IMG/VR virus record: IMGVR_UViG_3300021085_000115
Coordinates: 1 to 33,465 of that record
Source of the DNA: a virus
DNA: 33,465 nucleotides
Direction: 5' to 3' (one strand)
Shown: one piece after another, positions 21,060 through 28,265 of the stretch
How positions within the stretch are numbered: the stretch's first letter is position 1
Layout: every line of letters begins with the position of its first letter
The notes under the pieces: model-generated
What the model was told of the DNA's origin: nothing
Seen by the model: the letters and a program-made list of their open reading frames with translations, nothing else
The model's database searches: none
Position numbers and translations under genes: made by a program

Positions 21060-21174
21060 TACTGGATGTGTATACAGTAGTTTTTAGCCCTTTTTCACGC
21101 CCAATTTCCAGCCGGATTTGATGCGCAATGGCCAATTCTTCAGCCGAATACCAGATGTCGAATGGGCTACTCAA
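21001..21174 (-). CDS. Small protein, uncertain
   Basis: 57 residues from a TTG at 21174 overlapping the upstream stop region and preceded by GGTGG; an ATG at 21216 in the same frame would overlap by 50 bp. The segment SPFDIWYSAEELAIAHQIRL then EIGREKGLK reads like a genuine short helical protein. The last 20 residues (SSSSHHLAMMNDDSMMTPND) are a translation of the iteron-like repeat and look low-complexity. No family recognised. Confidence 0.4.
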   Translation of the reverse strand: MSSPFDIWYSAEELAIAHQIRLEIGREKGLKTTVYTSSSSHHLAMMNDDSMMTPNDE

Positions 21175-21394
21175 CTGATCCACCAATCGCCGGTTTGACG
21201 ATTTCGCGCATCTCATTGGTCAATTCACCCATCTCTCGCAAAAGCGCTTTTTTTTCTGAATACAGTTCGTCAGCATGCTTTTGCAGCGCTTGTGCATTTG
21301 AAAGTAACTCATCCGCATGCTTTTGCAACGTTGCCAATTCCAACATCAAATCGGAAATGTCCTCATCGTTTAGCTCAATCGTCACGTTTGCCAT
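21167..21394 (-). CDS. Small coiled-coil protein
   Basis: 75 residues. ATG 21394 follows GAGGG at 6 bases and overlaps the end of the 378-residue frame by 13 bp; the frame is open upstream, but that part is a shadow of the preceding gene. After MANVTIELNDEDISDLMLEL comes an internally repeated heptad region, with LQKHADEL occurring twice 14 residues apart, then EKKALLREMGELTNEMREIV. It probably forms a parallel coiled coil. Function unknown; the position after the methyltransferase suggests the early/middle replication operon. Confidence 0.65.
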   Translation of the reverse strand: MANVTIELNDEDISDLMLELATLQKHADELLSNAQALQKHADELYSEKKALLREMGELTNEMREIVKPAIGGSVE

Positions 21395-22518
21395 AGTTGT
21401 CCCTCTAATACTGTCCACGCTTTCGCCGCTGTCTGCGGCACCACTCCATTTCCGAGAGCGCGAATACGATCTACGCGATTTTCGGTGTTTTCCGAAACGC
21501 GTGGTATTCCTGCTTCCCATGAAGCAGAGTCCCAACCATCTATAACTTCGTTGTTTGTCTCAGTTAAGGATGTCCAACCCACTGGAACTCCCATCAATTT
21601 TTCAACCCAATCCGGGTTCAGTTGCCCATTGGTCTGCGCTCTGCCGCCAGCCTGATCTATCACTACTGTTGTTAGCGACTTCTGAGTGCCTTTCTTTGTC
21701 GGATCGCTCCGGTCTTGATAACCGAGTCGAGCTTCGTGTGCTGCTGGAGTCGGCCAATTCCTGACCGCGCCGCCCAATGTCGTGCCGCGCTTGTCCTTGC
21801 CTTTCACTTGGTTGTTGTCCTGCGTTGTCGGAGTTGGCCACATTGACACGAACCTGTCTAAACTCACCGACTTGTTTGTGCTGTAGTTCAGCTCCCCATT
21901 CGACGCGCCCTGATTTGTTGATTTCCGAATGATGTGATCGCTCGCCGTTGGAGTTGGCACGCTGTGGGTAGGTTTCTGCGTCAATCCCATTTGATAGGCT
22001 GGAGTCTGCAAGGATGTAGACTCGCTTTCGTTGATGCGGCGCACCGACTTCACTCGCGCTAAATATTCCGAACGTCGTTTTGTAACCAAGGCTTTCCAGG
22101 TCTTCGATGACTTCTCTAAGTCCAAGCGTGATGTGTCCTTCGACGTTTTCAAAAAAGCATCGAACAGGTCGCATTGCTTGGATATGTTCTCTGATGTATG
22201 GCCAGAGATGTCTGGGGTCATCCTTTCCGGCGCGCTTTCCTGCGGCTGAGAAAGGCTGGCAGGGATAGCCAGATGTAAGGATGTCAACTCTGTCTCGAAA
22301 GAGATGTGACGGGAAGGTTTTAAGATTCGACCACACAGGTGCCGGATCCAGGGCACCCGCTTCCATCTTCTGGACCAGGTTGGCAACGGCGAAAGCTTCG
22401 ATCTCCACATAAGCGAGTGTTCTAAGTTCAAGCCCGGCAAGCTCAAGTCCTCGCTCGATGCCAGCGTATCCGCTACAAAAGCTGATGACGTTTCTAGGTT
22501 GTTTGGCAGTATCCACAT
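21382..22518 (-). CDS. Long frame overlapping the C5-methyltransferase; carries motif X
   Basis: 378 residues from ATG 22518, only 4 bases after the methyltransferase ATG and in another frame; 917 bp are shared. The shared part is Ser/Thr/Pro-rich with repeated TPT phrases (SVPTPTASD, MWPTPTTQDN, NWPTPAAHEA). Past the methyltransferase stop it reads LNPDWVEKLMGVPVGWTSL, then RVDRIRALGNGVVPQTAAKA (about residues 348-367), a clear motif X of cytosine-C5 methyltransferases that the other frame lacks. Either this is a second polypeptide completing a split enzyme, as the beta chain does in M.AquI, or a +1 frameshift joins the frames. From memory, similar out-of-frame ORFs accompany other phage C5 enzymes; I cannot verify this here. 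Its extreme N-terminus may be a shadow. Confidence 0.7.
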   Translation of the reverse strand: MWILPNNLETSSAFVADTLASSEDLSLPGLNLEHSLMWRSKLSPLPTWSRRWKRVPWIRHLCGRILKPSRHISFETELTSLHLAIPASLSQPQESAPERMTPDISGHTSENISKQCDLFDAFLKTSKDTSRLDLEKSSKTWKALVTKRRSEYLARVKSVRRINESESTSLQTPAYQMGLTQKPTHSVPTPTASDHIIRKSTNQGASNGELNYSTNKSVSLDRFVSMWPTPTTQDNNQVKGKDKRGTTLGGAVRNWPTPAAHEARLGYQDRSDPTKKGTQKSLTTVVIDQAGGRAQTNGQLNPDWVEKLMGVPVGWTSLTETNNEVIDGWDSASWEAGIPRVSENTENRVDRIRALGNGVVPQTAAKAWTVLEGQLWQT

Positions 22519-22522
22519 CCAT
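21602..22522 (-). CDS. DNA cytosine-C5 methyltransferase, motifs I to VIII
   Basis: 306 residues from ATG 22522 (overlaps the upstream stop, TGATG; an ATG 11 codons earlier is in frame but less likely). Motif I is ISFCSGYAGIERGLELAG (13-30), motif IV GYPCQPFSAAG with catalytic Cys88, motif VI ENVEG (125-129) and motif VIII QRKRVYILA (164-172). The C-terminal 130 residues are polar and end WATEPGLG at a TGA. In complete family members this point continues into a motif X of the RxxALGNxVVPQ type; here that motif is encoded in the overlapping frame. The enzyme would methylate phage DNA, perhaps against host restriction. The split could be real or a single-base error. Confidence 0.85.
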   Translation of the reverse strand: MDVDTAKQPRNVISFCSGYAGIERGLELAGLELRTLAYVEIEAFAVANLVQKMEAGALDPAPVWSNLKTFPSHLFRDRVDILTSGYPCQPFSAAGKRAGKDDPRHLWPYIREHIQAMRPVRCFFENVEGHITLGLREVIEDLESLGYKTTFGIFSASEVGAPHQRKRVYILADSSLSNGIDAETYPQRANSNGERSHHSEINKSGRVEWGAELQHKQVGEFRQVRVNVANSDNAGQQPSERQGQARHDIGRRGQELADSSSTRSSTRLSRPERSDKERHSEVANNSSDRSGWRQSADQWATEPGLG

Positions 22523-22767
22523 CACCACCAATCCGAATAATGCTGTCTGAACCAAAGCACCGGATTTGGTTGCACTTCTTCCGCAAATGCGATGTCCTCG
22601 CGCGCTTGCTCTGCCAGCGTTTCCATCAAATCACGCGCCTCGCGCAGCGTGGCAAAGTCCTGTTCACTCAAATCCAGCATGCCGCGAAGATGCGCTTCTT
22701 TAAGCAGTGCGCCTTGTTTGGCTAGCTCATAGGTCAGCAAATCTTGTTTAGCCCATGCTTCGTTCAT
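22522..22767 (-). CDS. Small helical protein upstream of the methyltransferase
   Basis: 81 residues from ATG 22767, which overlaps the primase-helicase stop (ATGA); its stop in turn overlaps the methyltransferase ATG. It is mostly helical and acidic (LSEQDFATLREARDLMETLA) and ends in an aromatic tail (PVLWFRQHYSDWW). No family recognised. The tight overlaps on both sides mean it is translated with the replication and modification genes. Confidence 0.65.
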   Translation of the reverse strand: MNEAWAKQDLLTYELAKQGALLKEAHLRGMLDLSEQDFATLREARDLMETLAEQAREDIAFAEEVQPNPVLWFRQHYSDWW

Positions 22768-25868: not shown

Positions 25869-26774
25869 ATGAGAGCGATTATCTATTATCGAGATCGCAG
25901 AGGCGGCAAATCACTACAGTTTCAGCAAGACTTGGCGAACAGTTGGTGCCAACAGCGTGACATCAAAATCGTCGGTCAAGTCATTGAAAGCGAAGACGGC
26001 AGGAAGCGCAGCAAGCGCCCAGAGCTGGAAAGGGCGCTCAGACTTGCGCAACTCGCAAAGGCGATTTTGTTCATTCCCACGTTCGGCCAGATGAGCCGCA
26101 ACGCCGATGTGATTGGCAAGATGTTGAATCATGGCATCGAGGTTTGCACGCCAGACGTTGCCAGCTTGCGAGAACCAGGGGGCACAAAAAGCGTGCTGAA
26201 AGTCATGGCAAGCGTGGCAGAGTTTGAGGTCGAGGAAACAAAAGCGCGTGCGCGAAAAGCGTACAAAAAAATCCAGCAGACGATCAAAGAAACTGGCCAG
26301 CATGTCACCCGTAAAGGCAAGGTCATTCGATCGCTAGGCAATGCCAGCACGACCAAGATGGCCAGCGAAGAGGCCATCAAAACGCGGCTTGCGCAGAAAC
26401 TCGATTATACCGCTGAGATATTGCCGATGATGCAAGCACTCTATGATCGGGGGTGCAGATCGAGCGGCGAGTTTGCTAAAAGTCTGACCGCGAAAAAGAT
26501 TGTCAGTCCCAGAGGGCGCACGGTTTGGACAGCGAGCATGGCGCGCAACGTGATGGACAACTGCGGGATTAAATCTACGGCGCGCTTGGAATTTGTGCGC
26601 ACCGTCAAACCCGCGCCGCAGGTTGAAGCACCGGCAGCGGTTGATCAGACACTGAATGAATTGATCAAACAAATGCCGCACGAAAGCACAGAGATGCTAC
26701 GGCGCAAAACTGGCGCATCCTATGGCGACATCAAACGCGCAAGGGAGGCACTCGATGCCACGACCAACGACTGA
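25869..26774 (+). CDS. Serine-recombinase-fold protein lacking the catalytic serine
   Basis: 301 residues, GAGGGGG before ATG. The first 140 residues have the resolvase/invertase fold: MRAIIYYRDRRGGKSLQFQQ aligns with the usual YxRVSTxxQ opening, and FIPTFGQMSRNADVIGKML with the DRLSRN helix. Arg8 and the SR arginine are kept, but the nucleophile position 10 is Arg and the Asp-Arg of DRLSRN is Gly-Gln. A helical E arm follows (EFEVEETKARARKAYKKIQQ), then a recombinase-type DNA-binding region and a C-terminal helix-turn-helix-like end. Strand cleavage by the known chemistry seems impossible; a DNA-binding or regulatory role is likely. First gene of the rightward operon. Confidence 0.75.
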   Translation: MRAIIYYRDRRGGKSLQFQQDLANSWCQQRDIKIVGQVIESEDGRKRSKRPELERALRLAQLAKAILFIPTFGQMSRNADVIGKMLNHGIEVCTPDVASLREPGGTKSVLKVMASVAEFEVEETKARARKAYKKIQQTIKETGQHVTRKGKVIRSLGNASTTKMASEEAIKTRLAQKLDYTAEILPMMQALYDRGCRSSGEFAKSLTAKKIVSPRGRTVWTASMARNVMDNCGIKSTARLEFVRTVKPAPQVEAPAAVDQTLNELIKQMPHESTEMLRRKTGASYGDIKRAREALDATTND

Positions 26775-27037: not shown

Positions 27038-27295
27038 ATGACTGTATTTGATACGGAAGCACGAACCGCGCGCATTGGGCCGCGTTATAACAGCGCTCGA
27101 TATGCGCATAATATATATACAGGTAAACCGCAGCGGCGCGTTTATTGTGATCCTGTGATCAGGGAGGGGGAACAAACACCGCGAGCTGCGGAATTTGTTA
27201 AGACGGTGGGCGAGATGACGATCATTTTCGTGATCGGCGCTGCCATCGCAGGCGCATTGTACACCATTTATTCACTGACCGCAGGAGGTGCATAA
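27038..27295 (+). CDS. Small membrane-anchored protein
   Basis: 85 residues, AAGGAAAAG before ATG. A basic, Arg/Tyr-rich N-terminal 55 residues precedes one hydrophobic segment near residues 60-80 (MTIIFVIGAAIAGALYTIYS), so it is probably a C-tail-anchored inner-membrane protein with a cytosolic head. No family recognised. Its position in an early operon suggests host takeover rather than lysis. Confidence 0.65.
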   Translation: MTVFDTEARTARIGPRYNSARYAHNIYTGKPQRRVYCDPVIREGEQTPRAAEFVKTVGEMTIIFVIGAAIAGALYTIYSLTAGGA

Positions 27296-27296
27296 C

Positions 27297-28265
27297 ATGG
27301 TTGGTAAAGTTACTCCAAACACGCAAGCATCAGCCTCAATTATCGCCGCGATAATGGCCCATGATCCTTACAAAACCCCCAACGAATGCCTGCGCAGTTG
27401 CATCAATGCAAACGCCGGAATTCCGGCAAAAGATTGGGTTCAGAGCAAGCAAGCTGCATTCGGCGATCGCATCGAGCCTTTTTTAGCAGAGTCCGCGTGC
27501 AAAGCAATCGGCGGGTCGAAGCTAAAAACGGATTACGATCAGGCGTTCCATCATAAAGAACTGCCGCTCGCATGCAGTCTCGATGCAACGTGCTTTGCAG
27601 ACACGACGATTGAGCATGATCCCGACAACGGCATTTTCGTAATGACCCCAGAGCGCAAGATTAAGCTGTACGGAACTGGCGTGATCGAGTGCAAAAACAC
27701 TAGCGTAAAACCCGACGAAGCTGGGCCAGCACCGTATCGCGGCCCACTCCAGCTCCAAGCGCAAATGATGTGTACGCAGCTCCAATGGGGCGTAGTGGCG
27801 ACTTTGTACGGCGGGTATGATTTAAGGCTGTACTTTTACGACAACGCCCTGTCGATGCAGGTACTGATCAGCAACCGCGTCAGAGATTTTCAGCGCAGGA
27901 TCGAGGATCACGATTTCTACGCGCCCGAAAACAGCGGTGACGCTAATACTATCTGGCCGGTGCCGTTGAACTTTGACACTAAAGAGCTGATCGATCTGCC
28001 CGATGATGTCGACGGCATCTGCGAAGAGATCGAAGATTGTAAGCGTCTGAAAAAAACTATGGATGCAAAGATCGACGCACTCCAAAGTTTGCTGAAGATC
28101 CATTTAGGCGATCACGAATCTGGGATTGCGAAACGCTATGCCGTTGAATGGAAAATGACCAATGGGCGCAAAGAGAAGACCGTGACGTATGAGGGCAAAG
28201 AACCGGAGCGCGCTAAAAGCGTCAAGATCAAAAAGCTGAAAGAGGTGACCACAAATGTTGCGTAA
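27297..28265 (+). CDS. YqaJ/lambda-exonuclease-like recombination nuclease
   Basis: 322 residues from ATG 27297, which follows AGGAGG at 9 bases; a GTG three codons earlier is less likely. GDRIEPFLAE (Glu60), CSLDATCF (Asp96) and VIECKNT (Glu131, Lys133) form the PDDEXK centre, followed by the family's LQLQAQMMCTQ helix (151-161). The C-terminal third is a charged coiled coil (ICEEIEDCKRLKKTMDAKID). Such enzymes resect DNA ends for phage recombination, normally with an annealing partner; none of the known types is encoded here. Confidence 0.8.
   Translation: MVGKVTPNTQASASIIAAIMAHDPYKTPNECLRSCINANAGIPAKDWVQSKQAAFGDRIEPFLAESACKAIGGSKLKTDYDQAFHHKELPLACSLDATCFADTTIEHDPDNGIFVMTPERKIKLYGTGVIECKNTSVKPDEAGPAPYRGPLQLQAQMMCTQLQWGVVATLYGGYDLRLYFYDNALSMQVLISNRVRDFQRRIEDHDFYAPENSGDANTIWPVPLNFDTKELIDLPDDVDGICEEIEDCKRLKKTMDAKIDALQSLLKIHLGDHESGIAKRYAVEWKMTNGRKEKTVTYEGKEPERAKSVKIKKLKEVTTNVA

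Follow-up and report, generated by a model that had tools for sequence, protein, structure and literature searches.

Among the closest described systems are two cytosine-C5 DNA methyltransferases composed of two polypeptides, M.EcoHK31I and M.AquI. In M.EcoHK31I, the gene of the small chain is a smaller internal open reading frame (ORF), read in a different frame from the large-chain gene that contains it; the genes of M.AquI are consecutive and barely overlap. It is generally rare for two genes on one strand to overlap at length when a single enzyme requires both products. According to PMC3404938, the conserved motifs of M.EcoHK31I (YGGCCR) are partitioned into I–VIII plus X on one chain and IX on the other (Lee et al. 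1995), and those of the two-subunit M.AquI into I–VIII on the α chain and IX–X on the β chain (Karreman and de Waard 1990). C5-methyltransferases split between motif VIII and the recognition domain, either naturally or artificially, do complement (PMC5944983). No paper on the two-frame family described below came up in a literature search for phage methyltransferases whose subunit genes overlap.

The window (the whole stretch of 33,465 nucleotides that was analyzed) contains phage genes for a terminase, portal, major head protein, tape measure, integrase-like recombinase and RecE. The recombinase (25869–26774), which is similar to the integrase and DNA invertase families, is located near a RecE-like exonuclease (27288–28265), suggesting a temperate tailed phage. 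The first-pass annotation described a cytosine-C5 methyltransferase divided between two overlapping frames of this window, and its coordinates are exact to the base: the ATG of frame A (22522) and that of frame B (22518) are 4 bases apart and open frames that overlap by 917 bp. As it claimed, motifs I, IV, VI and VIII are seen in the sequence of frame A, which stops at 21602, and frame B runs 220 bp further, ends at 21382 and holds motif X; the stop of A is a TGA at 21604–21602. The motif set of a C5-methyltransferase is complete across the two frames, with I, IV (PC), VI (ENV) and VIII in A, and IX and X in B. The features of the locus are as follows.

21602–22522, minus strand: frame A, predicted α chain (306 residues), catalytic large domain with motifs I–VIII, without motif X
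21382–22518, minus strand: frame B, predicted β chain (378 residues), +1 relative to A; N-terminal segment, WPTP modules, motifs IX and X
22460–22480, minus strand: motif I (FCSGYAG) in frame A, from the sequence
22250–22270, minus strand: motif IV (GYPCQPF) with the catalytic Cys in frame A, from the sequence; PCQ is invariant in alignment A2
22142–22150, minus strand: motif VI (ENV) in frame A, from the sequence
22016–22033, minus strand: motif VIII (QRKRVY) in frame A, from the sequence
21622–21960, minus strand: three WPTP-type modules in frame B (starts at 21960, 21840 and 21756), putative target-recognition region
21571–21621, minus strand: motif IX (LNPDWVEKLMGVPVGWT) in frame B, from the sequence
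21602–21604, minus strand: TGA stop of frame A, within motif IX, from the alignment with the closest relative, L008
21456–21604, minus strand: replaced IX–X segment, type-2-like, from the L008 alignment
21433–21468, minus strand: motif X (RIRALGNGVVPQ), in frame B in the window and in frame A in its nearest relatives
22515–22526, minus strand: start region (TGATGGATGTGG) with the stop of the upstream gene, the ATG of A, the ATG of B and a GTG of A

A small gene (21167–21394, minus strand) lies directly past β; its start overlaps the end of β, and it contains a repeated LQKHADEL segment.

Each frame was searched separately against profile databases. Frame A matches the Pfam DNA_methylase family (PF00145, 6.5e-30) and phrog_363 (1.5e-48). 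The α chain resembles M.HhaI and M.HaeIII both by sequence and by fold: the predicted α part adopts a class I methyltransferase fold, with a match to M.HaeIII (9.2e-12) and also to M.HhaI. The tail of α (VANSD..., LADSS...) is the frame A reading of the DNA that encodes the WPTP modules of β. Frame B alone matches phrog_1008 (3.8e-26) over residues 76–369, including the part over the catalytic motifs of A; thus, its relatives are read in the frame of B even across those motifs. This family, annotated as 'DNA methyltransferase', is matched by all of the aligned β proteins (44/44).

The start codons of the two frames are closely interlocked. Frame B begins with ATGTG in 55 of 63 distinct starts, with GTGTG in 6 and with TTGTG in 2. 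The GTG inside ATGTG belongs to frame A and is the only nearby A start in about half of the loci, and in most relatives α is able to start at this GTG, two bases past the ATG of B. The stop of the upstream gene overlaps the start of B in 41 of the 63. In the window, it is the ATG of A itself, at 22522, that shares bases with this stop (TGA); such an in-frame ATG, four bases upstream of that of B, is atypical among the relatives. Most simply, these sequences would mean that each chain has a start of its own, the two lying two to four bases from each other, with coupling to the upstream gene.

When viral contigs were scanned with A and with B, about 110 loci with both frames emerged; they fall into two types. 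In type 1 (the majority, M.EcoHK31I-like), X belongs to A, which spans the overlap, while IX lies in B, which ends about 75 nt past the start of this motif; where B reads GWTDLG..., the reading of the same DNA stretch in A is RVDRLRLLGNGVVP. In type 2 (the minority, M.AquI-like), A stops just past VIII, ∼184 codons into its open frame, and both IX and X are in B. None of the 125 distinct motif-IX sites has IX in the frame of IV (0/125), and X is in frame A at 82; α always lacks IX, as well as X whenever B has it. The partition with X in β is found in the type-2 clade (L097–L112), in the distant locus L114 and in the window, which suggests more than one origin. In two further loci (L032 and L035), frame A breaks off past VIII, and X lies in another ORF of this frame further on; these are possibly broken genes or a second type of split.

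The +1 placement of IX extends to bacterial contigs (Bacteroidota, Verrucomicrobiota, Planctomycetota, Alicyclobacillus and others) and to annotated phages. The latter include Paenibacillus larvae phages, in whose records the depositors marked both of the overlapping genes; in several other annotated records, just one of the frames is given. A search of plasmids gave three weak matches. A Sphingomonas plasmid locus (L201, 1726–2817) has a β-like frame annotated as a hypothetical protein; the overlapping α-like frame, which has motifs I, IV, VI and VIII, is absent from the gene table, which is incomplete.

Selection on both frames is evident in these relatives. The test region for stops in B comprised 167 codons over the catalytic part of A, whose synonymous codons were permuted while its protein was kept. 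Frame B has no stops in 47/47 non-redundant viral relatives, compared to 3.4 expected per sequence, and the third frame has 6–13 over the same region. The chance of B being open under permutation is P=0.05 for the window alone and averages 0.004 per sequence (geometric mean) over the 47 relatives, which share descent and are not independent, so that the values should not be combined into a single probability by multiplication. In the reverse permutation, with the protein of B kept, A is open across the tail of the window with P=0.001. The α tails that reach motif X (type 1) have no stops, versus 4.7 expected; in type 2, where A can do without this stretch, it has 15–33.

Substitutions give the same picture. 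The four-fold sites of A, which coincide with the second codon positions of B, differ at 0.31 in pairs with ∼30% amino acid divergence, compared to 0.58–0.61 in flanking genes of the same loci; in type-2 pairs, the value is 0.08–0.12. Along most of B, sliding four-fold values are 0.06–0.46, rising to 0.57–0.58 at A codons 85–108, which encode the linker of B. This neutral level serves as an internal control, indicating that the pairs are saturated and that the low values elsewhere reflect constraint. In the N-terminal part of B, M1, W2, P5, D17, W48, W52, R64 and P68 are invariant or nearly so. The first codons (MWILPKN) are conserved, and M1 and W2 are invariant, from which we infer that B is translated from its first codons on. 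The proposal that both frames are protein-like in the overlap is thus upheld by separate family matches and by codon-level constraint on both frames across the relatives.

These results bear directly on one option raised in the first-pass annotation, a programmed +1 frameshift, in which translation would start in A and shift into B past VIII to give one full-length methyltransferase. Type-2 loci lend themselves to this scheme, as A ends there soon past VIII, where the WPTP region of B begins, so that a shift at this point would produce a complete enzyme. However, a frameshift leaves the N-terminal half of B untranslated, yet this half is open and strongly constrained in both types; in type 1, it would lose X, since A itself continues to X; and an in-frame IV–IX fusion is absent from the 125 distinct sites. 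We consider a frameshift product very improbable.

The window itself is a hybrid of the two types. It is the sister of the type-1 locus L008 and is placed inside type 1. From 22600 to 21565, the two loci are 94.2% identical without gaps. Past 21565, 111 nt in the window face 8 nt in L008 (net +103), after which similarity resumes at 87.7%. The replacement segment is type-2-like: it encodes WVEKLMG, the IX–X distance is 153 nt (compared to 150 nt in type 2 and 50 nt in type 1), and the nearest relatives of the tail are of type 2, at about 60% amino acid identity. As the net difference of 103 nt is 1 mod 3, it places motif X in frame B. Frame A stops at GGT TGA in the window, where GTT replaces GTC in motif IX; L008 has GGT CGA at the same site, and its frame A reads on to motif X. 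An X in B together with an A still open to IX occurs at 1 of the 125 sites, the window, on one contig. The tail exchange looks recent, since the tail of A, which no longer reaches X, is still without stops before IX. A chimeric assembly is unlikely, as the two junctions lie within ∼150 nt of each other and no fetched locus matches the tail exactly over more than 14 nt.

The absence from the A frame of the window of the motif X that its closest relative has there could also reflect a damaged methyltransferase gene, a single gene split by an indel, a sequencing error or decay, and the first-pass annotation had considered a missing or extra base that would merge the frames. However, two near relatives (94%) are open in both frames, the displacement of X is due to a segment with a net difference of 103 nt and not to a single base, and IX and X are intact in B. 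As the origin of the split, an indel, sequencing error or pseudogene is ruled out by the relatives, in which both frames are open and under selection. Damage to a single gene is thus highly unlikely, while a loss of activity in the hybrid of the window alone is possible.

Frame B has no Pfam or NCBIfam match in the profile searches, and a search of PDB sequences with the β profile found no credible relative of the whole of B among solved structures. An AlphaFold2 model of β alone, based on 44 aligned sequences, has low confidence (pLDDT 54.6), and a viral structure search with this model found no credible match. A hypothetical α–β fusion, joined by one +1 step at TCCA and containing only the letters of the window, was modelled with mixed α and β rows: the α half folds, and the β part remains below about 45 and is not folded. 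Two mixed alignments (A3 and A5) were left out because their β rows were misplaced.

Between VIII and IX, β consists of 1–8 units that start with WPTP or a similar sequence (relatives L007–L120). The units, for example AHEARLGYQDRSDPTKKGTQKSL, which is found in otherwise dissimilar neighbours, recur in differing numbers, orders and combinations among phages, and in type 1 both frames stay open throughout. Judged from this pattern, they are probably exchangeable recognition units. It is also very unlikely that B is a separate overprinted protein with some other function (e.g. a regulator or an anti-host protein) and no methyltransferase subunit, an idea that agrees with the fruitless Pfam, NCBIfam and solved-structure searches and with an N-terminal half of no assigned function, but not with the presence of IX, X and shuffled recognition-like modules in B, nor with an α that always lacks IX, and X whenever B has it.

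The locus very probably encodes a two-chain C5-methyltransferase, with β overprinted on α and with motif X moved from A to B by segment exchange. The α chain would form the catalytic domain that binds AdoMet and the flipped cytosine, and β the small domain with the target-recognition region and IX, in the window also X. By analogy to M.EcoHK31I and M.AquI, the two chains may assemble into a heterodimer that methylates DNA as one active enzyme. Each would start on its own at overlapping ATGTG-type starts, behind the stop of the upstream gene, which would make the whole α gene dual-coding. In the recent ancestor of the window, X would have been read in frame A (the M.EcoHK31I partition); replacement of a short IX–X segment by a type-2-like one would then have put X in frame B (the M.AquI partition), leaving an α without motif X, which stops at motif IX after a remnant tail. 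The usual guess for the role of such an enzyme is that it shields the DNA of the phage from restriction by the host. Inspection of the larger ORFs of the window revealed no restriction gene, and the methyltransferase is apparently an orphan.

Beyond this locus, the balance of the data tilts, less firmly, towards a widespread phage and bacterial family in which obligate subunits are overprinted from end to end, beginning at a shared ATGTG, dual-coded recognition cassettes are shuffled, and tail exchange reassigns a motif between chains, with the window representing a stage soon after such an exchange. The two-frame reading is backed by selection tests over dozens of relatives. Loci with X in α, loci with X in β and the hybrid form a natural series for studying how a split enzyme tolerates a motif moving between its chains. 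The family is also suited to asking how start codons two bases apart set the ratio of the chains, and how target modules shuffle when each must stay open in two frames.

Of the other options raised in the first-pass annotation, the overprinted gene holds, as β is written over the α gene; it combines with the two-chain enzyme and is not an alternative to it. The proposed likeness to M.AquI stands in part. The two chains and the I–VIII/IX–X partition of the window agree with M.AquI, but the 917 bp overlap, the starts 4 bases apart and the partition of most relatives do not. M.EcoHK31I is similar in having two chains with IX only on a separate β chain, and the nearest relatives of the window have its exact partition; its small-chain gene also lies in another frame of the large-chain gene, corresponding to the +1 overlap in the window. 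In contrast to M.EcoHK31I, the window has X on β and an α that ends at IX, and its β frame (378 residues) extends back to the start of α. The Paenibacillus larvae phages (Diva gp49/gp50) share the nested +1 arrangement with IX in the inner frame, but their inner gene starts ∼180 nt inside α, whereas that of the clade of the window starts at the start of α. Two-chain enzymes of this kind are already known, and what is new is the full-length dual coding and a tail that switches frame.
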